A DNA stretch of 64,000 bases from Thermothelomyces thermophilus ATCC 42464 (lineage: Eukaryota > Ascomycota > Sordariomycetes > Sordariales > Chaetomiaceae): the NCBI RefSeq assembly GCF_000226095.1, contig NC_016472.1:7812001-7876000 (forward strand), given 5' to 3'. Below are positions 3-14,310 of the stretch, piece after piece. The notes below the pieces were generated by a model, which was given only the letters and a program-made list of their open reading frames with translations, did no database searches and was not told the origin of the DNA. Each line of letters opens with the position of its first letter. Positions within the stretch are counted from its first letter, which is position 1. Made by a program: the position numbers and the translations under genes.

Positions 3-1472
3 CGAATGAACGGAACCACGGTTAAGGCCAACGACAAGAAAAAGCGAGCGTACGTTAGTACCTCGTACGGGACGCACCCCGGAGCCATGGATGTGGACGC
101 AGCGCAGAAGCAGGACCAGAAGAAGGCGACCAAAGACAAGTCCAATGTTACCTGCTACAACTGCGGAAAGAAAGGGCACTACAAGCGAGAATGCCGGAGC
201 CCGAAGAAAGAATGGAAACCAACCCCCGGAAAGGAAATTGCGGCCATCGACGAAACCACCAAGAACGTCACCGAAGTAGCAGCCACGAGCTACGAAGACA
301 AGGACAGTGACACGGACAGTCTCGGACACGACGGCAACGGTGAAGACGAACAAGCACCGTACTCCGAACTGGTCACTGTGGACCCAGAGACAGGTCTTGC
401 CGAATGGGACATGGCAGGAGAGTATGCGCCGCCAATTTCGATTCTCCCAATCTTGAGGCAGTGGGGTTTCACAGTCACGCAGAGGCGGGATGGATCGTGG
501 ACAACCGACACCCAAGGAATCGAAAGACCCGGACCCAATGCTCTATTCCTCCAGGAACGAATCGAATGGTACCGCAACGAAGTTTTCCGACTCAACACGG
601 AACTGCGCGAACGGGATGGGCGCTTGACTCGACTCGCCCAGCAGAGCGATGAGATGAAGGACGAAATGAGGGAACTCCGACGTATCGTGGAAACCATCAA
701 AGGGGAACAGCCTGTGACATATGATGGGCCCGATAGCTACGCCGAGCACTTTGACGATCAGCAACTCAGCCACGACGTACGGAACCCCGAGTACCAGTTC
801 ATGCGCGCGAACCGCGGAAAAGATGAGCGTACGTGGGAAAGCTACTGGAAGAAACACTCCTATGTCAGCACTGGAGTACCTACGGTCCACGTACAGTGGG
901 AAGGATTCGGGAAAGAGTTCCAATACCTTCCAGGCGACGCCACGCGACTGCACCCTCGACACGAGGCACATGCGCAAGTGCCCTGGTTCCAGTGTGTGGC
1001 ACACGAATGCCGATACCACTTCCGCGACAAATTCGAAAACAACCACTGGCCGACCCGACAGGAGAACGGGGACGGAGGCTTGTGCCCTGTGGAATGGGTC
1101 TACGATGCAGGAAACAGAGCGGCCGAATTGCTTTGGAAGATCGAAGCCCGCGATCTAGAAAGCATCACGATAGTTCCAAGACGAGCCTGGCCTAGGCACT
1201 GCGGAACCGGACGAGACACATGGGACTCGTGCTGGAGCAACGATTGCCTCTATCACGCGGACGAAAAGAAATTGCGAATTCGGGAGCTTCAGATGAAGCT
1301 ATGGCACGCACGACGGAAAGCAGAACGGACCCAATGGTGGGAAGCCGCAAGCACTCAATGGCTCACGGAAATGAGCACGATCGACGAAGCCGCTATCAGC
1401 CGAACAACCGAAGAGGTCAGCACTGACCTGGGAAACGGGTCAGGGCCCTTCGAGGGGCCCGGAAACCATTAA
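3..1472 (+). CDS. Gag polyprotein of element A (5' partial)
   Basis: This is the nucleocapsid part of gag, which packages element RNA into virus-like particles. The visible 489 codons hold a CCHC zinc knuckle (C50, C53, H58, C63, counting from the first ATG at 6), an acidic linker (about 97-115) and a probable coiled coil (about 181-233). A C-terminal region with further Cys/His residues follows (C330, C335, H338, H347, C360, C399, C409, C414, H417). The frame is open to the window edge, so the ATG at 6 is not the true start. In the RIPped copy C the homologous gag begins at an ATA (17,486) that was probably ATG before RIP, giving a full length near 750 aa. The frame ends at TAA 1470-1472, about 45 nt after the pol frame opens. 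Confidence 0.9.
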   Translation, partial: RMNGTTVKANDKKKRAYVSTSYGTHPGAMDVDAAQKQDQKKATKDKSNVTCYNCGKKGHYKRECRSPKKEWKPTPGKEIAAIDETTKNVTEVAATSYEDKDSDTDSLGHDGNGEDEQAPYSELVTVDPETGLAEWDMAGEYAPPISILPILRQWGFTVTQRRDGSWTTDTQGIERPGPNALFLQERIEWYRNEVFRLNTELRERDGRLTRLAQQSDEMKDEMRELRRIVETIKGEQPVTYDGPDSYAEHFDDQQLSHDVRNPEYQFMRANRGKDERTWESYWKKHSYVSTGVPTVHVQWEGFGKEFQYLPGDATRLHPRHEAHAQVPWFQCVAHECRYHFRDKFENNHWPTRQENGDGGLCPVEWVYDAGNRAAELLWKIEARDLESITIVPRRAWPRHCGTGRDTWDSCWSNDCLYHADEKKLRIRELQMKLWHARRKAERTQWWEAASTQWLTEMSTIDEAAISRTTEEVSTDLGNGSGPFEGPGNH

Positions 1473-4400
1473 CGCCCGCGCAGCGGCGAGTGGTAGCGCA
1501 GTACAGGAGGAACTGGCGCAAGAGACCACTATACCGAGACCTCCCGGCAGAAACATGGGAAATCGCCGCAATCTTTGGACGACGGCGGCAAGACAAGCGG
1601 CTGTGGATAACAGCACAGTGGAAACAGCACGAAATGCTCGCACTAGTGGACAGTGGAGCAGAGATGAATCTGATTTCGCCGACACTTGTGAATCAGCTGC
1701 GGATACCCTGGAGAATGAAGCGGAAGCATGGCATAGTCAAAGGGCCATTTCCGACGCAATGGGTACGCAGGGAGACCGAACCGATCGACATCACTGTGGC
1801 AGGGAAGACCACAGCAGTCGTATTCAGCATCGTGGACATGGGCAACGACAAAGACATGATATTGGGGTTACCATGGCATGAAGATTACGACCCGGACATC
1901 AGCTGGAAGAACGGTGGCCACCTGCGACCCCGAATGGAGTCGTATTCGACCAGCGAGATGGGGAGCGCGCAAGGATCGCGAGCGGACGATGCTCAGAGAA
2001 AGGCATGTCCTACGGATCCACCGCAAGAGACGGACAGTGGCAGGCAGACCACTACGGACTCTGGAAGAAGCGGCATAACGATACCGACGTTGCGACAGGA
2101 GGAACGAGCTGAATCGCCGATAGCTGTTCTCTCCGTTGACGAATGCGGAGCACTGCAATGGGAGCAGTGGGTTGAGACAGGAGAAATCGCCAGTATCGCC
2201 ATGGACGGAACCAAGTTCGCATACTACCAGAAAACCGAGAGACGGGACAAGACTGGGGAAGTACCGAAGGAATACGAAGGGCACCCAGCATTCGAACCGA
2301 AACATCTGGAAGGACTACCAGAACACGGCCCATGGGATCACGAGATCAAGCTCAAGGAAGGAGCACGACTGAAGTTCTTCAAGATTTACCACACGAGCCA
2401 GACACAGAACGAAGAACTTAAGCGATATTTGGAGGAGAACCTTCGAAGAGGACATATCCGCCCGTCGACATCGCCAGCAGGCTACCCAATCCTGTTTGTG
2501 CCCAAGAAAGACGGAAAGCTACGGTTATGTGTCGACTATCGGCAACTCAACGAACAGACCGTGAAAAACCGATACCCGTTACCGCTGATCTCACGGCTCC
2601 GAGATCAGTTGGCAGGAGCCCAATATTTCACGCGTCTTGACTTGCCATCGGCCTACAACCACATACGGATCAAAGAAGGCGACGAGTGGAAAACGGCCTT
2701 TAGGACACCCTATGGCCACTACGAGTACCTCGTCATGCCATTTGGACTTACGAACGCGCCGGCAACGTTCCAAGCCCTGATTGATCAAGCTATCCGACCC
2801 TTTCTCGACAAATTTGCGGTATGTTATCTCGACGATATACTCATCTTCTCCAAGACGATGGACGAACACCGGAAGCACGTAAAAGCAGTGCTGGACGCGC
2901 TGCACGCGTACAAGCTATCAGTCAACAAGGGAAAGAGCGAATTCCACGTCAGGAAAACGGTGTTTCTGGGATACGAGATATCCCCAGGACAAATCCGGAT
3001 GGAACCTTCAAAGGTTGAAGCTATCAAGAATTGGCCACGACCGACGTCAGTCACGGAAGTACGAAGCTTCATCGGATTTGCAAACTTCTACCGGATGTTC
3101 CTCAGGAACTTTGGAGCGATCGCACGACCTTTGCACGAACTTACCAAGAAGAACGCTGAATTCCAATGGGAAGAGCAACACGAGCAGGCATTTACGCAGA
3201 TTCGCGACGCCATCACCGAGGATCCAGTACTGGTACTGCCAGACCCCAAGAAGCCATTCGAGGTAGAAACGGACGCTTCAGACTACGCCATCGGAGGACA
3301 ATTGGGACAACGAGACGAACAAGGGAAGCTACATCCTGTAGCCTTCTTTTCAAAGAAGCTCGATGGACCACGTCTCAATTATCCGATCCACGACAAGGAA
3401 CTACTTGCGATTGTCGAAGCTTTCAAGGAATGGCGACCATACCTCAGCGGCACGATTGAACCGGTACAAGTATATACGGATCACAAGAATTTGCGATACT
3501 TCACGACGACGAAGGAACTCAACGGACGACAAATACGATGGGCAGAATTCCTCGCGGAATTCAACTTTGAGATCCGCTACAAGAAGGGCAAAGAGAACGC
3601 ACGAGCGGACATCTTAAGTCGACGAACGGATCACACGGAAGGACGAACGGGAACGACACCACCGTTGTTCAAGGAACGGACAGACGGAACGCTGCATCAC
3701 GAGACGCAGACACCCGTGGAAGATGATCCACTTGACTCGTTCCTCGAATGCTGCGCAATCTTTCGAGAAGAAAGGATCAACGAGGCACAGTATCAAGCAG
3801 CACCCGGACCAGTGGTACCTGACGGAGTAGAAGAGAAAGATGGGAAACTCTGGTACCGAGGCAAAGCGTACATCCACGACAAAGGTCAACAGCTGCGGAT
3901 GATTCGAGAACTCCACGAGTCGAAACTCGGAGGACACAAAGGAGTTACGAAGACTGTCGCACAAGTCAAGAAACACTACGACTTTCCACAGTTGACGACA
4001 CGAGTTAAGGAAGTCGTACGGAACTGCGACATCTGCAATCGGAGCAAAACGGCACGACACAAGCCGTACGGGCTACTTCAGCCACTACCAACAGCTGACA
4101 AACCATGGAGTTCAGTTACGATGGACTTCATTACGAAGCTGCCAGAATCCAAGGACACGGCCACAGGAGTGACCTACGACAGTATTCTTACTGTAGTAGA
4201 TCGCCTGACTAAGTGGGCATACTTCTTTCCCTACAAGGAGTCCTGGACAGCGGAACAGTTGGCAGACGTGATCTATCGGCAAGTTGCATCAGTGCATGCT
4301 TGGCCGCAAGAATGGATCACCGACAGAGACACCAAGTTCGCATCGAAGTTCTGGCAAGCGTTAATGCAACGATTGGGCGTTAACAGCAAGCTGTCAACGG

Positions 4401-5290
4401 CATATCACCCACAGACTGACGGACAAACGGAGCGACTAAACCAAGTTGTTGAGCAGTACCTCCGCTCTTACGTCAACTACCAGCAAAACGACTGGGTCAT
4501 GCTGTTACCAACAGCACAACTCGCCTACAACACGACGCCGACAGAAACGACCAAAGTCACACCGTTCTTCGCGAACTACGGATATGAAGCAGACCTTAGG
4601 CAAGGACCAGAGGTCACAGTGCCAAGAGCAGCAGTCAAAGCAGAACAGATGCACGCACTGCACGAGAAGCTCAAGAAGGAACTCGAGTTTGTCAAGACCA
4701 GAATGAAGAACTACTACGACAAACACAGGCTCGAGGGACCTCGCCTAGAGAGGGGAGATAAAGTCTACCTGATCGCACGAAACTTACGAACCAAACGACC
4801 AAGCACGAAGCTGGACTTCAAGAAGGTCGGACCCTTCGTTATCAAAGAACGAATTTCGACATCCAACTACCGACTATCGTTACCGTCATCTATGCGACTA
4901 CGGACGGATGTTTTTCATATTTCACTTCTCGAACCAGCACCGAAGAACGCCAAAATCGCCACGAACACCGAAGCGGAAGACGAAGAAGAAGAATGGGACG
5001 TCGAAGAAATTCTGGATTCACGCATCATCAACGGAGAACTGCAGTACCTGGTCAAATGGCTTGATTTTGGGCCAGAAGACAACTCATGGGAACCAGTTAA
5101 GAACCTGAGTTGCCCCGAGAAACTTCAGCAGTTCCACCAGAGGAACCCTGACCGACCGAAAGCGACGAACCCGAAACCAACCCGAAATCGGCCAGCAAGG
5201 ACGGATCCAAAGGAACTTCAGGATACACGGCATCCCAAAGCTGTCCGAAATCGGCGGACAGGCGAGATGGGGTCGAAGAAGACGCAGTAA
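1427..5290 (+). CDS. Pol polyprotein of element A: protease, reverse transcriptase, RNase H, integrase, chromodomain
   Basis: The frame opens after the TGA at 1424-1426 and has no good ATG, so it is probably expressed from gag by -1 frameshifting. Counting from codon 1490, aspartic protease DSGA is at 54-57. The RT has YLDD at 446-449, preceded by LRLCVDYRQLN. RNase H begins near VETDAS (592 on). The integrase has an HHCC zinc region and the catalytic triad D879, D945, E981, with exactly 35 residues between the last two. A chromodomain lies at about 1168-1221 (WDVEEILDSR, LQYLVKW, SWEP). All catalytic residues seen are intact, so this copy may be active. The 3' end overlaps the antisense gene by about 190 bp. 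Confidence 0.95.
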   Translation, partial: PGKRVRALRGARKPLTPAQRRVVAQYRRNWRKRPLYRDLPAETWEIAAIFGRRRQDKRLWITAQWKQHEMLALVDSGAEMNLISPTLVNQLRIPWRMKRKHGIVKGPFPTQWVRRETEPIDITVAGKTTAVVFSIVDMGNDKDMILGLPWHEDYDPDISWKNGGHLRPRMESYSTSEMGSAQGSRADDAQRKACPTDPPQETDSGRQTTTDSGRSGITIPTLRQEERAESPIAVLSVDECGALQWEQWVETGEIASIAMDGTKFAYYQKTERRDKTGEVPKEYEGHPAFEPKHLEGLPEHGPWDHEIKLKEGARLKFFKIYHTSQTQNEELKRYLEENLRRGHIRPSTSPAGYPILFVPKKDGKLRLCVDYRQLNEQTVKNRYPLPLISRLRDQLAGAQYFTRLDLPSAYNHIRIKEGDEWKTAFRTPYGHYEYLVMPFGLTNAPATFQALIDQAIRPFLDKFAVCYLDDILIFSKTMDEHRKHVKAVLDALHAYKLSVNKGKSEFHVRKTVFLGYEISPGQIRMEPSKVEAIKNWPRPTSVTEVRSFIGFANFYRMFLRNFGAIARPLHELTKKNAEFQWEEQHEQAFTQIRDAITEDPVLVLPDPKKPFEVETDASDYAIGGQLGQRDEQGKLHPVAFFSKKLDGPRLNYPIHDKELLAIVEAFKEWRPYLSGTIEPVQVYTDHKNLRYFTTTKELNGRQIRWAEFLAEFNFEIRYKKGKENARADILSRRTDHTEGRTGTTPPLFKERTDGTLHHETQTPVEDDPLDSFLECCAIFREERINEAQYQAAPGPVVPDGVEEKDGKLWYRGKAYIHDKGQQLRMIRELHESKLGGHKGVTKTVAQVKKHYDFPQLTTRVKEVVRNCDICNRSKTARHKPYGLLQPLPTADKPWSSVTMDFITKLPESKDTATGVTYDSILTVVDRLTKWAYFFPYKESWTAEQLADVIYRQVASVHAWPQEWITDRDTKFASKFWQALMQRLGVNSKLSTAYHPQTDGQTERLNQVVEQYLRSYVNYQQNDWVMLLPTAQLAYNTTPTETTKVTPFFANYGYEADLRQGPEVTVPRAAVKAEQMHALHEKLKKELEFVKTRMKNYYDKHRLEGPRLERGDKVYLIARNLRTKRPSTKLDFKKVGPFVIKERISTSNYRLSLPSSMRLRTDVFHISLLEPAPKNAKIATNTEAEDEEEEWDVEEILDSRIINGELQYLVKWLDFGPEDNSWEPVKNLSCPEKLQQFHQRNPDRPKATNPKPTRNRPARTDPKELQDTRHPKAVRNRRTGEMGSKKTQ
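1443..1460 (+). promoter_or_regulatory. GC-rich hairpin in the gag/pol overlap, candidate recoding element
   Basis: GGGCCCTTCGAGGGGCCC can fold into six G-C pairs plus one T-G wobble around a TCGA loop. It lies inside the short region (1427-1472) where gag (stop 1470) and pol (-1 frame) overlap, which is where a -1 frameshift has to occur. The same sequence is present unchanged in D (14,300-14,317, minus strand) and with one terminal change in C (19,718-19,735). No classical slippery heptamer was found in the gag phase. A recoding role is inference. Confidence 0.5.
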
Positions 5291-5735
5291 CCCCAGAAGC
5301 TTCCGCTGCCACCGCCGCCGCAGCCTCCTCACGTTCCACTCGCTCCAACTCCTCCACACTGTCGATACCCCGAGCGATAGCCCTCATCATCTTCTCAAAC
5401 CACATTCGCTTCTGTTTCCGGAGACGAAGGACCCGCTCCTCAGCAGCCATAAGCTCATCCTCAAGTTTTTGATGCTGAGCCGCAATAGACCGAAGCTGAG
5501 CAGGAGAAACGCCAAGAACGTCACAATTCGAACGCTTGTTGCGAACGCACTCTGCGCATCGAGAAGAATCGCTTTTCGAAACCTCGCACGAACTAAGGCC
5601 TTTGGACTCGCACGGCGTACAAGGACGCATCGTTAAAAGATTATCCGAGGAGAGAATCGCGGCCAGGAGATGGTTGGCACGAAGAGTCGACGCAGCAGGT
5701 TTAGATTTCGACTTCTTTCTCACACGATCAGCCAT
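5097..5735 (-). CDS. Antisense accessory protein of element A: Cys6 zinc-cluster-like plus coiled coil
   Basis: This is a 212-aa ORF opposite the end of pol and the 3' untranslated region. I chose the ATG at 5735; the frame also runs upstream without an ATG. The N-terminus is basic (RVRKKSKSK). Six cysteines follow at 39, 42, 50, 60, 63 and 71, a C-X2-C-X7-C-X9-C-X2-C-X7-C array close to the fungal Gal4-type Zn2Cys6 pattern (CX2CX6CX5-12CX2CX6-8C). Next come a likely coiled coil (about 80-137, with VLRLRKQK), an alanine-rich hinge, an acidic/hydrophobic stretch (163-186) and a Ser/Gly-rich tail. RIPped homologues sit at the same place in D (9999) and C (23,569), which argues that it is a real gene. 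Family resemblance is seen in the motif only; a DNA-binding or regulatory role is inference. Confidence 0.7.
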   Translation of the reverse strand: MADRVRKKSKSKPAASTLRANHLLAAILSSDNLLTMRPCTPCESKGLSSCEVSKSDSSRCAECVRNKRSNCDVLGVSPAQLRSIAAQHQKLEDELMAAEERVLRLRKQKRMWFEKMMRAIARGIDSVEELERVEREEAAAAVAAEASGVTASSSTPSRLSADFGQLWDAVYPEVPLDPSLLADFGLVSGSSLSVGQGSSGGTAEVSRGNSGS

Positions 5736-5852: not shown

Positions 5853-5862
5853 GAAGGAGGGG
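5853..5862 (+). other. Polypurine tract of element A
   Basis: GAAGGAGGGG lies five bases before the LTR start, the expected site for plus-strand priming. The equivalent tract, reverse-complemented, sits next to D's LTR at about 9876-9888. Confidence 0.75.
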
Positions 5863-5952
5863 CATCGTGTCACGATTTGGCTGCATAAGGCGACCCGGCA
5901 AGGCGCACAGAACCAATCAGGAACCACAAGACCTAAGGACCAATCAGGAAGT

Positions 5953-6022
5953 GATCGCAGTGATCGCACTTCGATCAAGACGAGCACTTGGGTAACGATC
6001 GCAGGATCGCAGCAGCGATCGC
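5953..6022 (+). repeat. Cluster of five GATCGC repeats in LTR U3
   Basis: GATCGC occurs at 5953, 5962, 5997, 6005 and 6017, in places within CGATCG palindromes. It lies in U3 about 40-105 bp upstream of the TATA box, where an enhancer would be expected. I did not find it in the other LTR copies. Confidence 0.5.
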
Positions 6023-6058
6023 ACGATCAAGACTCAAGGGGGAAAGGACAAGGAAATT

Positions 6059-6109
6059 GTATATAGTCACTCGTTCTGGCGAACTCTGGGAGTTCACCAG
6101 TGGTAACAA
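6059..6109 (+). promoter_or_regulatory. LTR promoter (TATA) and predicted start of R, self-priming sequence
   Basis: TATATA lies at about 6060. About 38 nt downstream, AGTGGTAACAA (6099-6109) is complementary over 11 nt to the RIP-corrected sequence beside the LTR in D (16,564-16,576). This is the arrangement of Tf1-type self-primed elements, where the RNA 5' end anneals to the primer-binding site. The exact transcription start is not shown by the sequence. Confidence 0.55.
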
Positions 6110-6281
6110 TCACAATCACAGTACTCATACCAAGCATTGCTGATTACTGTGAGAGACAACTCTAAGTGTTGTTGTGAACCCTTTGGCTTCACCGAATCCC
6201 TCAGACGACCTGCCTGCTTGTCCCGCTTCACCCACCTCCGTCTGGACCCTTTCAGAAGCAGTCTGAGTTGGGTTCGTCACA

Positions 6282-8270
6282 CGACGCTATTACTAAGGAC
6301 CTAGTATTAGTACTACCGGACCCTAAGAAGCTATTCGAGGTAGAAACGGACGCTTTAGACTATGCTATTAGAGGACAATTAGGATAACGAGACGAATAAG
6401 GGAAGCTATATCCTATAGCCTTCTTTTCAAAGAAGCTCGATAGACTATGTCTTAATTATCCGATCTATAATAAGGAACTACTTGCGATTGTCAAAGCCTT
6501 TAAGGAATAGCAACTATACCTTAGTAGTACAATTAAACTAGTATAAGTATATATAGATTATAAGAACCTATAATACTTTACAATGATAAAGGAACTTAAT
6601 AGATAATAAATATAATAGGTAGAATTCCTTACGGAATTTAACTTCAAGATCTGCTATAAGAAGGGCAAAGAAAACGTATAAGCAGATATCTTAAGCTGAC
6701 GAACGAATCATATAGAAGGACGAACGGAAACAACACTACCGTTGTTTAAGGAACAAATAGATAGGACGCTACATTATGAAACACAGACACCCGTAGAAGA
6801 TGATCTACTTAACTCGTTCCTAGAATGCTACGTAATCTTTCGAGAAGAAAGGATTAACGAGGCATAGTATCAAGTAGCACCCGGACTAGTGGTACCTGAC
6901 GGAGTAGAAGAAAAAGATGGGAAACTCTAGTACCAAGGCAAAGTATATATCTACGACAAAGATTAATAGCTACGGATGATTTGAGAACTCTACGAGTCGA
7001 AACTTAGAGGATATAAAGGAGTTACGAAGACTGTCGTACAAGTCAAGAAACACTATAACTTTCTATAGTTAACGGCACGAGTTAAAGAAGTCGTATAGAG
7101 CTACGATATCTGCAATCGGAGCAAAATGGCATAATATAAGCTATATAGGCTACTTTAGCTACTACTAATAGCTGACAAACTATAGAGTTTAGTTACGATA
7201 GACTTTATTATAAAGCTACTAGAATCTAAGGATATAGCTATAGGAGTGACCTATAATGGTATTCTTACTATAGTAGATCGCTTAACTAAGTAAGTATATT
7301 TCTTTCCCTATAAGGAGTCCTAGATAGTAGAATAGTTAGTAGACGTAATCTATTAGTAAGTTACATTAGTACATGCTTAGCTATAAGAATAGATTACTAA
7401 TAGAGATACCAAGTTTATATTAAAGTTCTAGCAAGCGTTAATGTAACAATTAGGCATTAATAGTAAGCTATTAACGGCATATTACCTATAGACTAACAGA
7501 TAGATAGAGCGATTAAACCAAGTTATTAAGTAGTATCTCCGTTCTTACATTAACTACTAGCAAGACGACTAGGTCATACTATTGCTAATAGTATAACTCG
7601 CTTATAATATAACGCTAACGGAAACAACCAAAGTTATACTGTTCTTCGCAAACTACAGATATAAAGCAGACCTTAGGCAAGGACTAGAGGTCATAGTACC
7701 AAGAGTAGTAGTCAAAGTAGAACAGATATACGCACTATATAAGAAGCTTAAAGAGGAACTCGAGTTTGTCAAGACTAGAATGAAGAACTACTATAACAAA
7801 CACAGGCTCGAGGGATCTTGCCTAGAAAGGGGAGACAAAGTCTACCTAATCGCACGAAACTTGCAAACCAAACGACTAAGCACGAAGCTAGACTTTAAGA
7901 AGGTCAGACCCTTCGTTATCAAAGAACGAATTTCGACATCTAACTACCGACTATCGTTACCGTCATCTATATGACTATAGATAGATGTTTTTCATATTTT
8001 ACTCCTCGAACTAGTACCAAAAAATGCCAAGGTTGCTACGTATATCGAAGTAGAAGACAAGGAAGAAGAATAGGACGTCGAAGAAATTCTGGATTTATAT
8101 ATTATTAACGGGGAACTGTAGTACCTGGTTAAATGGCTTGATTTTGGACTAGAAGATAACTTATAGGAACTAGTTAAGAACTTGAACTACCCTAAGAAAC
8201 TGGAATAGTTCTACCGGCAGAACCCGGATTGACTGTAGGCACTAGCTTAGACAAAACGGCCAAGTCGGCC
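6282..8270 (+). pseudogene. Element B: RIPped 3' half of a gypsy pol (RNase H, integrase, chromodomain)
   Basis: The sequence begins at the point matching about 3210 of element A's pol and runs collinearly with it through RNase H, integrase and chromodomain. It carries many TAG and TAA codons where A has CAG, CAA or TGG, plus CpA-to-TpA changes, the signature of RIP. The missing 5' half should lie upstream of A's 5' LTR, outside the window. After the chromodomain the tail (8270-8460) differs from A, is only about 200 bp long, and has no room for the antisense gene. Confidence 0.88.
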
Positions 8271-9998: not shown

Positions 9999-10663
9999 AT
10001 GCTAGTAGAGAAACGGAAGTCGCATTCTACACGTTACCGTGCTTCCCTTGCTTAGAACATCGCCAAGAACGGTTTTATCGTTATACCTTGTTCTTGGTGC
10101 ACGTCTTAAGGCCTTATCTGCAAAATAATCGTACACACAAAGCGTTATAAGGCCTATATTTGTCAAGGTCGTTCTTACGATAGCTTTAGCATCCTGCTTT
10201 CTTCCTATAAGCTTATCTCCCTCTCTTTTTTTTTTTTTTTTTTTAAGTGTGATTTCTAATATTCTTTCTAATAGATCACATTCTCTAGGAGCAGCATCAT
10301 ATCAAGGATGCTAAATGTCGTGCCGAACTTAAGCTAGATAAATCCTAACGCCGTCTAGAAGAAGCCTAGCACGAGTTGTCTGAAAAGCTTACACGGCTCC
10401 GGCGTCTTCGTCAGTAGAAGGAGTTTTTAGTAGAGAAAGGTGCCGATATGGTGGCACGTAGTCTGTCGACCTTAGACGAGTTAGAGGCAGTTAAGCGGTA
10501 AGAGCAGCAAGAGGCGCCTACTATACCCTCATCAGAGATTAATGATACTGCCGATGCTATCGACTGGGGCGTCGTCTTTAGTTCTATCCTAGGTTTTCCT
10601 TTAGTCGATCTAGATTCTACCGGTAGAACTGTTCTAGTTTCTTAGGGCAATTTAGGTTCTTAA
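9999..10663 (+). pseudogene. RIPped antisense accessory gene of element D
   Basis: On the strand opposite to D's gag-pol, an ATG at 9999 opens a frame whose stops are almost all TAG/TAA of RIP type. It encodes a basic N-terminus, then cysteines at TGT, TGC and TGC codons with spacing C-X2-C-X6-C. Three further positions at the zinc-cluster spacing are TAT, TAT and TAC (Tyr), as expected from TGT or TGC after RIP. Downstream LTRLRRLRQ and LSTLDELEAVKR match the coiled-coil part of A's protein (VLRLRKQK; IDSVEELERVE). A run of about 19 T with flanking splice-like signals (10,210-10,290) may mark an intron. Confidence 0.65.
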
Positions 10664-10689
10664 CTAGTTCCTATAAGTTATCTTCTAGA

Positions 10690-13600
10690 TTAAAATCAAG
10701 CCATTTGACTAGGTACTATAGTTCTCTATTAATAATATATAAATCTAGAATTTCTTTGACGTCCTATTCTTCTTCCTTGTCTTCTGCTTTGATATATATA
10801 GCAACCTTAGCGTTTTTCGGTACTAGTTTAAGGAGTGAAATATAAAAAACATCTATCTGTAGTCGTATAGATAATAGTAACAATAGTCAGTAGTTAGATG
10901 TCGAAATTTGTTCTTTGATAACGAAGGGTCTGACCTTCTTAAAGTCTAGCTTCGTGTTTAGTTATTTAGTTCGCAGGTTTCGTACAATTAGGTAGACTTT
11001 ATCTCCCCTCTCTAGGCAAGGTCCCTCGAGCTTGTATTTATCGTAGTAGTTCTTCATTCTGGTCCTAATAAACTCGAGTTCCTTTTTAAGCTTCTTATAT
11101 AGTGTATATATCTGTTCTACTTTGATTGCTGCTCTTAGCACTATAACCTCTAGTCCTTGCCTAAGGTCTACTTTATATCTATAGTTTACAAAGAACGGTA
11201 TAACTTTAGTCGTTTCTATCGGCGTCGTGTTATAAGCGAGTTATACTGTTAGTAATAGTATAACCTAGTCGTCTTGCTAGTAGTTAATATAAGAGCGGAG
11301 GTATTACTTAATAACTTGGTTTAGTTACTCTATTTGTCTATCGGTCTACGGGTAATATGCTATTAACAGCTTGCTATTAACGTCTAATCGTCGTATTAAC
11401 GCTTGCCAGAACTTCGATACAAACTTGGTGTCTCTATCGGTGATCCATTCTTGCGGCCAAGCATATACTAATATAACTTGCCGATAGATTACATCTACTA
11501 GCTATTTAGCTATCTAGGACTCCTTATAGGGAAAGAAGTATACCTATTTAGTTAGGCGATCTACTATAGTAAGAATACTATCGTAGGTTACTCCTATAGC
11601 TATATCCTTAGATTCTAGCAGCTTTGTAATAAAGTCTATTATAACTAAACTCTATAGTTTGTTAGCTATTAGTAGTAGCTAAAGTAGCCTATACGGCTTA
11701 TATCGTACTGTCTTGCTTCAATTGCAAATGTCGTAGTTCTATATAACTTCCTTAACTCGTGCCATTAACTATAGAAAGTCGTAGTATTTCTTAACTTATA
11801 CGACAGTCTTCGTAACTCCTTTGTATCCTCCGAGTTTCGACTTGTAGAGTTCTCGAATCATTCGTAGCTATTGATCCCTATCGTAGATATATGCTTTGCC
11901 TCGGTACTAGAGTTTCCTATCTTTTTCTTCCACTTCGTTAGGTACCACTAGTCTAGGTGCTGCTTGATACTATACCTCGTTAATCCTTTCCTCTCGAAAG
12001 ATTGCGTAGCATTCTAGGAACAAGTCAAGTAAATCATCTTCCACAGGTATCTACGTTTCGTAATGTAGCGTTCTGTCTGTTTGTTCCTTGAACAATAGTA
12101 ATATTATTCCTATTCGTCCTTCTGTATGATCTGTTTATTGGCTTAAGATATCTGCTTGTACGTTCTCTTTGCCCTTTTTATAGCGGATCTCAAAGTCGAA
12201 TTCTATAAGGAATTCTGCCTATCGTATTTGTCATCTATTAAGTTCTTTCGTCGTTATAAAGTATTGCAGGTTCTTGTAATCTATATATACTTGTACTAGT
12301 TTAATCGTACCACTAAGGTATAGTCACTATTCCTTAAAAGCTTTAATAATCGTAAGTAGTTCCTTGTTATAGATCAGATAATTAAGACATAGTCTATCGA
12401 GCTTCTTTAAAAAGAAGGCTATAGGATATAGCTTCCCTTGTTCGTCTTATTATCCCAATTGTCCTCTAATAGCGTAGTCTAAAGCGTCCGTTTCTACCTC
12501 GAATGGCTTCTTAGGGTCTAGTAGTACTAGTACTAGATCTTTAGTAATGGCATTACGGATCTTCGTAAATGCTTACTCGTATCGTTCTTCCTATTGGAAT
12601 TTAGCGTTCTTCTTGGTAAATTCGTATAAAGGTCGTACGATCGCTCTAAAGTTCCTAATAAATATTTGGTAGAAGTTTGCAAATCTGATGAAACTTTGTA
12701 CTTCCGTGACTGACATCGGTTATAGCCAATTCTTAATAGCTTTAACCTTTAAAGGTTCTATCTAGATTTATCCTAGGGATATCTCGTATCCTAAAAAGAC
12801 TATCTTCCTAATATAGAATTCGCTCTTTTCCTTGTTAACTAATAGCTTATACGCGTATAGCACGTCTAGTACTACTTCTACGTACTTCCGGTGTTCGTCT
12901 ATCGTCTTAGAGAAGATGAGTATGTCGTCAAGATAATATACCGTAAATTTGTCAAGAAAGGGTTAGATAGCTTGATCAATTAGGGCTTAGAACGTTGCTA
13001 GCGTGTTTGTAAGTCCGAATGGCATGACGAGGTACTTGTAATGGCTATAGGGTGTCCTAAAGGCCGTTTTCTACTCGTCGCCTTCTTTAATCTATATATA
13101 GTTATAGGCCAATAGCAAGTCAAGATACATGAAATATTAGGCTCCTACTAACTGATCTTAGAGCTATAAGATTAGCGGTAACAGGTATCGATTTTTCATG
13201 GTCTATTTGTTAAGTTACTAATAGTCGACATATAACTATAGCTTTTCGTCTTTCTTAGGTATAAACAAGATTAGGTAGCCTACTAGCGATATCGACAGGC
13301 AAATATGTCCTCTTCGAAGGTTCTCCTCTAAATATCGCTTAAGTTCTTCGTTCTATATCTAGCTTATATAGTAGATCTTAAAGAACTTTAGTTATACTCC
13401 TTCCTTAAGCTTAATCTTATAATCCTATAGGCCGTGTTCTGGTAATCCTTCTAAATGCTTCGGTTCGAATGCTAGGTGTCCTTTATATTCTTTTAGTACT
13501 TCCCTAGTCTTATCTCGTCTCTCGGTTTTCTAATAGTATATAAACTTGGTTCTATCTATAGCGATACTAGCGATTTCTCCTATCTTAACCTACCGCTCTA

Positions 13601-14310
13601 ATTATAGTGCTCTGCATTCGTTAACAGAGAGAACAGCTATTAGCGATTTAGCTCGTTCCTCCTATCGCGATATCGATGTTGTTATGCTACCTCTTCTAGA
13701 GTCTATAGTGGTCTGCCTACTACTATCCGTCTCTTGTGGTAGATCCGTAGGATATGCCTTCCCTTAAGCATCGTCTGCTCGCGATCCTTATACGCTCCCC
13801 ATCTTGCTAGTCAAATACGACTCCATTCGGGGTTATAGGTGGCTACCATTCTTCTAGCTAATGTCCGGGTCGTAATCTTCATACTATGGTAACCCTAATA
13901 TTATGTCTTTGTCGTTACCTATGTCTATAATACTAAATATAACTACTATAGTCTTCCCTGCTATAGTAATATCGATTAGTTCGGTCTCCCTATGTACCTA
14001 TTACGTTAGAAATGGCCCTTTGACTATACTATGCTTCTACTTCATTCTCTAGGGTATCCGTAGCTAATTTATAAGCATTAGCAAAATCAGGTTTATCTCT
14101 GCTCTACTATCTACTAGTACGAGCATTTCGTGCTGTTTCTATTATGCTATTATCTATAGTCGTTTGTCTTACCGCTGTCATCTAAAGATTACGGCGATTT
14201 CCTATATTTCTGCTAGGAGGTCTTGGTATAGTAGTCTCTTATGCTAGTTCTTCCTATACTACACTACCACTTGCCGCTATATAGGCGTTAATGTTTTCCG
14301 GGCCCCTCGA
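10690..14310 (-). pseudogene. RIPped pol of element D
   Basis: Read on the minus strand it is collinear with A's pol: chromodomain near 10,690-10,790, integrase, RNase H, RT (the YLDD region near 12,930) and protease near 14,100. Stops are TAG/TAA from Gln and Trp codons. No large deletion is apparent. Confidence 0.85.

Follow-up and report, generated by a model that had tools for sequence, protein, structure and literature searches.

An antisense gene at the 3' end of a chromovirus retrotransposon in Thermothelomyces thermophilus encodes a 212-aa protein that, by homology and position, is a member of the large Ascomycete BRTN family, and that is predicted to adopt a divergent Zn2Cys6-type binuclear cluster fold. 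We propose, with a probability of roughly 0.6, that the protein acts as a self-encoded Zn2Cys6-like dimer that binds the U3 of its own element, probably as an activator or anti-silencer, and that regulator and operator make up an exchangeable cassette. An antisense gene of the BRTN kind is already known, from a grey-mould element; new here is that the regulator appears, from comparison of element copies, to have been swapped between elements along with the adjoining promoter region. The gene lies in a window of 64,000 nucleotides, by which we mean the whole stretch of DNA that was analysed.

The host element is a chromovirus (Ty3/gypsy with a chromodomain). According to the ORF list and Pfam, its pol ORF (1490..5290, + strand) encodes protease, RT, RNase H, integrase and a chromodomain (aa 1169-1218), and a gag-side ORF with a CCHC zinc knuckle lies near the window's left edge (6..1472, +). 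A polypurine-tract-like stretch, recognized by eye (5853..5867, +), directly precedes the 414-bp 3' LTR (5868..6281, +). Within this LTR, the U3 part that diverges jointly with the zinc half of the antisense gene in type B copies spans 5868..6050 (+), and a TATA-box-like TATATA (6060..6065, +) belongs to the presumed sense promoter. The 3' LTR does not differ from the 5' LTR, which lies just beyond the window's left edge, and the insertion is therefore recent. The target-site duplication is absent, the five bases left of the 5' LTR (L057 1171) differing from those right of the 3' LTR; given identical LTRs without such a duplication, inter-element recombination is possible. Pol-like, AT-enriched sequence (82-86% to pol) directly follows the 3' LTR (6282-8239), which suggests that the window element inserted into an older relative, now degraded; another degraded copy lies inverted further right in the window (10598-13998).

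An earlier note on this DNA had described the antisense ORF from the letters alone, and translation confirms it: 5097..5735 (- strand) is stop-free and lies opposite the end of pol and the space before the LTR. It overlaps the pol ORF by 194 bp (antisense aa 149-212), and the stretch coding for aa 1-148 is past the pol stop. The parts that the note had named, all on the minus strand, are likewise present. The basic N-terminus (aa 1-16; 5688..5735) has six K/R and is nuclear-localisation-like, possibly in function too. Six cysteines (aa 39-71; 5523..5621) follow in the order C-X2-C-X7-C-X9-C-X2-C-X7-C, with two 7-residue spacings. The coiled coil corresponds to a long helix in the structure prediction (aa 78-121; 5373..5504), presumably used for dimerisation, and the acidic/hydrophobic stretch (aa 155-190; 5166..5273, overlapping the pol tail) has a net charge of -4, with 13 of 36 residues hydrophobic, and may function as an activation domain.

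The note's further assignment of the protein to the Zn2Cys6 architecture gains some support from the predicted fold, with both cluster and coil, and fails against the Pfam model PF00172. Structure prediction yields a Zn2Cys6-like cluster (pLDDT 94-98 across it) with a coiled coil. When the predicted cluster-plus-coil was compared by Foldseek, Zn2Cys6 DNA-binding domains filled 14 of 15 rows, each match being weak, and they filled all 14 rows of the VIA comparison (25 chains compared). The PF00172 HMM gave no row for the window protein (P0001) at E<=10 with filters on, and the Pfam gathering score was not reached; the model matched 6 of 42 aligned family members at E<=1 (best 0.018), and the best of 10 further relatives scored 16.9 bits against a cut-off of 21. 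Zn2Cys6 domains follow the pattern C-X2-C-X6-C-X5-12-C-X2-C-X6-8-C, which the window protein (2-7-9-2-7) misses, its first loop being one residue too long; the 6-residue spacings, which the earlier note had seen replaced by 7 in this protein, do occur in distant family members, the BRTN-labelled P0120 included. Several basic residues between Cys2 and Cys3 have a role in DNA contact in Zn2Cys6 domains. The window protein has one K there, short of several, and the means for this loop are 1.4 (74 members) and 2.7 (23 members) in the family versus 4.5 in 20 host domains.

A single-sequence search with the antisense ORF matched 99 proteins, own-genome copies included; named sources include Colletotrichum, Pyricularia, Cordyceps, Fusarium and Metarhizium, and the rest are mostly metagenome or unnamed. 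Profile search matched 146 proteins, and the best 120 of the 146 add Pseudogymnoascus, Cytospora and a Botryotinia protein annotated 'Putative BRTN' (P0120; profile E 7.5e-34, 30% identity over 93% of the query). The window protein combines homology to BRTN with an antisense gene position, in a gypsy chromovirus, between pol and 3' LTR. Six spaced cysteines are present in 115 of 144 proteins, the antisense ORF counted, 23 of the 115 having 2-6-8/9-2-6 spacing; R122 and L130 are also invariant in 97 aligned members, all of which were selected for the six-Cys pattern. Among the 4656 pairs that these 97 homologues form, 10, falling in six groups, are at least 85% identical in the C-half and at most 65% in the N-half, and 13 show the reverse contrast of close N-halves and distant C-halves. 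Two sets of Cordyceps/Metarhizium and metagenome homologues (P0024/P0060/P0067 and P0030/P0049/P0050) have C-halves 86-97% and zinc halves 42-57% identical, and may record a similar half-swap outside Thermothelomyces thermophilus.

The genome itself holds at least 71 matches to the antisense ORF (150 of 163 candidates scored). Fifteen are intact, at ~100% identity, and stops, mostly TAG, interrupt 55 of the remaining 56. In all 36 copies fetched from these 71, the ORF runs antisense to pol (L056 by coordinates, 35 by fetched sequence). A second type, B, for which six relatives were fetched and five used, resembles the window element (type A) in the 3' part of pol, the antisense C-half and R-U5, and departs from it sharply in its zinc half and its U3. 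Counted as majority transversions between B and the window copy, the differences are 81/319 in the zinc half and 27/178 in U3, versus 5/997 in pol 4100-5096, 1/194 in the overlap, 2/120 in the C-half, 7/132 in the leader and 8/216 in TATA-R-U5. This copy comparison shows, at the level of sequence, that zinc half and U3 diverged jointly in type B, and linkage is a simpler reading of that joint change.

Additional types emerged when the same genome was searched with the C-terminal 266 aa of pol; this gave at least 144 scored matches among 924 candidates. Besides the 15 window-type copies, it returned 18 stop-free ones at 91-92% identity with a different pol tail. All eight 3' ends fetched for types D, E and F, two from these 18 copies and six from other matches, carry a distant relative on the antisense strand and have R-U5 in common at about 92-98%. 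This one genome thus has no fewer than five types of antisense gene (A, B, D, E and F) on a common body, meaning the pol 3' part and R-U5, the comparison for all types but A being confined to the 3' side of the element, short of gag and the earlier pol. The 15 window-type and 18 type D copies are stop-free in the searched parts (one window-type copy has a single TAG in pol), and 12 of the 15 window-type copies have an open pol frame of 1287 codons; stop-free copies beside many with RIP-type stops suggest a recent burst, with RIP weakened or no sexual cycles.

In type D, cluster and coil lie in two frames. Between them is a putative antisense-strand intron, 66-71 bp long, with a GTAAGC donor, 19-24 consecutive T and a CTAG acceptor; its removal would unite them into a two-exon gene, and it lends indirect support to an antisense transcript. 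The intron differs by 5 bp between the two copies; the T-run in the presumed intron is 24 long in one (L078 541-611) and 19 in the other (L079 560-625). Type F may have an antisense intron less surely, as its 51-bp GTAGGT...CTAAC/CTGAC...TTAG stretch is at a similar place but in-frame. Antisense-strand introns would not be spliced out of the sense RNA, and their persistence in a retrotransposon fits with this.

The copies also allow selection on the antisense frame to be assessed. RIP produces C-to-T and G-to-A changes, so we counted only transversions shared by at least two copies. Over 5291-5735, beyond pol, comparison of the window copy with five type B copies gives a transversion-only pN/pS in the ORF frame of 0.43 (Fisher P=5.8e-5, approximate because sites are taken as independent and copies are related). 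The other five frames give 0.57 (P=0.01), 2.01, 1.79, 1.04 and 0.99, and all five contain stops. The ORF's own frame is thus the only one of six both open and under purifying selection. With all 21 copies the ORF-frame value is again 0.43, against 0.13 for a pol control, and two copy groups give 0.25 (P=0.03) and 0.49 (P=0.0005). The frame opposite pol and the 3' untranslated region might be open by chance, or the antisense RNA might matter and the protein not, and the window element does have other antisense ORFs (81-167 aa) facing gag and pol; but the family's presence in many fungi, the frame-specific selection and the two-exon gene of type D leave that explanation hardly credible. By these sequence criteria, the antisense ORF is a real protein gene.

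The U3 of type A contains iterated motifs that we propose as the operator (5953..6033): five GATCGCA, at 5953, 5962, 5997, 6005 and 6017, and two CGATCAAGAC, at 5972 and 6024. A motif search also found two copies of the CCAAT-box-like CCAATCAGGAA at 5913..5950, and each type has one or two CCAAT motifs. GATC occurs 4-8 times in 36 of 36 U3s of A-like and B copies (five with approximate start). Its context is type-specific: GATCGC occurs six times in intact A copies, which lack GATCAT, whereas B copies have five to seven GATCAT/ATGATC and lack GATCGC; RIP-mutated A-like copies are mixed (GATCGC 1-5, GATCAT 0-2). The counts of 7 in A and 8 in B were attained in 0 of 2000 shuffles each. Because GATC was chosen after viewing A and B, only types E (P=0.003 and 0.041 for two copies) and F (P=0.0055) provide near-independent shuffle tests of enrichment. 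No GATC occurs in the type D U3, which has three GGTGATAA (P=0.004 as 8-mer, 0.04 as 7-mer, 0.27 as 6-mer), and neither in F nor in the second E copy was the top k-mer significant against shuffles. Between types, the U3s of A and B align clearly, A-E, B-E and D-E align just over the highest shuffle, and the pairs A-D, A-F, B-D, B-F, D-F and E-F gave no alignment above 100 shuffles.

These motifs bear on whether the protein regulates at all. It could instead be a zinc-binding coiled-coil accessory that serves nuclear import, the choice of integration site or the handling of RNA, and the U3 change would then be a matter of hitchhiking: zinc half and U3 adjoin, basic residues are fewer in the usual DNA-contact loop, and there are weak Pfam matches to coiled-coil and kinetochore proteins (among them HAUS1, Nuf2, CENP-H and CENP-Q). 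We regard such a role as improbable, in that the fold matches, all but one, are Zn2Cys6 DNA-binding domains and iterated GATC is kept in the U3 of A, B, E and F despite sequence turnover.

Under the U3-binding reading that we prefer, we infer that transcription leftward from the 3' LTR or nearby yields an antisense mRNA and from it a small protein, whose divergent Zn2Cys6-type cluster (aa 39-71) would bind zinc, whose coil (aa 78-121) would dimerise, and which ends in an acidic/hydrophobic tail. The homodimer would read the iterated GATC-core motifs in the U3 of its own LTR type, and so control sense transcription from the 5' LTR as well as its own gene. The zinc half and U3 would form an exchangeable cassette on elements alike in R-U5 and in the 3' part of pol. 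The swap would be bounded near the TATA/R region and within the coil, as expected of inter-element strand transfer in reverse transcription. That fungal chromoviruses in general carry such cassettes, the regulator and the U3 iterons it reads being swapped as one unit, by template switching in reverse transcription, between elements otherwise alike in body, is a tentative idea to which we give somewhat less than even odds. If true, each cassette defines a private control group, like phage immunity regions or VANC/target pairs, and decides which copies stay active under RIP and other silencing.

The sign of regulation can be judged in part from the 15 intact copies. Sites that vary among them make up 63/1472 of gag and 114/3607 of pol, versus 2/194 in the overlap, 2/445 in the antisense-only part, 2/132 in the leader and 3/414 in the LTR, or 9 in the 1185 bp of the 3' module against 177 in the 5079 bp of gag and pol. 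Low variability extends to the non-coding leader and LTR, and therefore points to one recent 3' module common to diverse gag-pol backbones rather than to coding constraint. Such a module on diverse gag and pol looks as if a new cassette had escaped, which would suit a repressor that acts at U3 on sense transcription as copies accumulate, giving copy-number control that a cassette swap evades, comparable to the heteroimmunity of temperate phages. The presence of several regulator types among related elements fits this too, and HTLV, as described in parts of two papers, has an antisense-coded regulator at a like place (HBZ, PMC11963269) and an antisense promoter within its 3' LTR (PMC7264820). 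The last 60 residues, however, are net negative in 94 of the 97 aligned family members, which suits activation better, and we consider repression unlikely, if a serious alternative. Since the tail is acidic and a single 3' module has been so successful, the U3-binding protein most likely activates or counters silencing, and is less likely to be a copy-number repressor. If this proposal is correct, fungal retrotransposons encode transcription factors of their own and pass control circuits among themselves in modular form; the Zn2Cys6-like fold and the type-specific iterons in the adjoining U3 make the function of the antisense gene a binding and reporter question.

Among known systems, the nearest relative is brtn of Boty-like retrotransposons in Botrytis cinerea, reportedly described by Zhao et al. 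in 2011 (Virology 417:248). The earlier note had supposed an antisense regulator to be a new trick for a fungal chromovirus, which does not stand: according to passages of three papers, the antisense brtn of Boty was named in 2011 (PMC8365987, PMC7264820, PMC4227169), and the window protein is its relative. Those passages present brtn as an antisense gene (PMC8365987) between pol and the 3' LTR (PMC7264820) of an element whose pol has a chromodomain (PMC4227169), as in the window element, and P0120 falls in the window protein's family; the two proteins differ in having only ~30% identity and in spacing (2-6-9-2-6 in P0120, 2-7-9-2-7 in the window protein). On this gene, part of another paper mentions a Monilinia match (PMC5987419). 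In the relevant passages, a 2020 review states that clear similarities of such antisense products to other proteins had not been described (PMC7264820), and for antisense genes placed between pol and 3' LTR both it and a 2025 paper call the role unknown (PMC7264820, PMC11963269). We found BRTN called a zinc-cluster protein nowhere in the portions of the literature searched, a scope that leaves the original 2011 description outside.

With the fungal Zn2Cys6 DNA-binding domains of Gal4, Hap1, Put3 and Leu3, the window protein shares two C-X2-C-Xn-C halves followed by a coiled coil, and its predicted fold resembles theirs by weak matches; it differs in being element-encoded, in falling below Pfam cut-offs, and in a first loop one residue longer with fewer basic residues. 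HTLV-1 HBZ is a bZIP protein, not a zinc cluster, and VANDALs, unlike the window element, are DNA transposons. HBZ is alike in being encoded by an antisense regulator gene at a retroelement 3' end, as far as the excerpted account goes (PMC11963269). Plant aORF-3R genes (Grande gene23, Retand TRP28) are alike in position, orientation and a suspected nuclear regulatory role, and differ in that other domains are named and the word zinc is absent from both main texts (PMC7264820, PMC11963269). By analogy, the pairing of regulator and iterons may find its best counterpart in VANC anti-silencing of Arabidopsis VANDALs, which, in the part of the account used here, is TE-encoded and sequence-specific, with targets that are often tandem repeats varying between related elements (PMC5735166).
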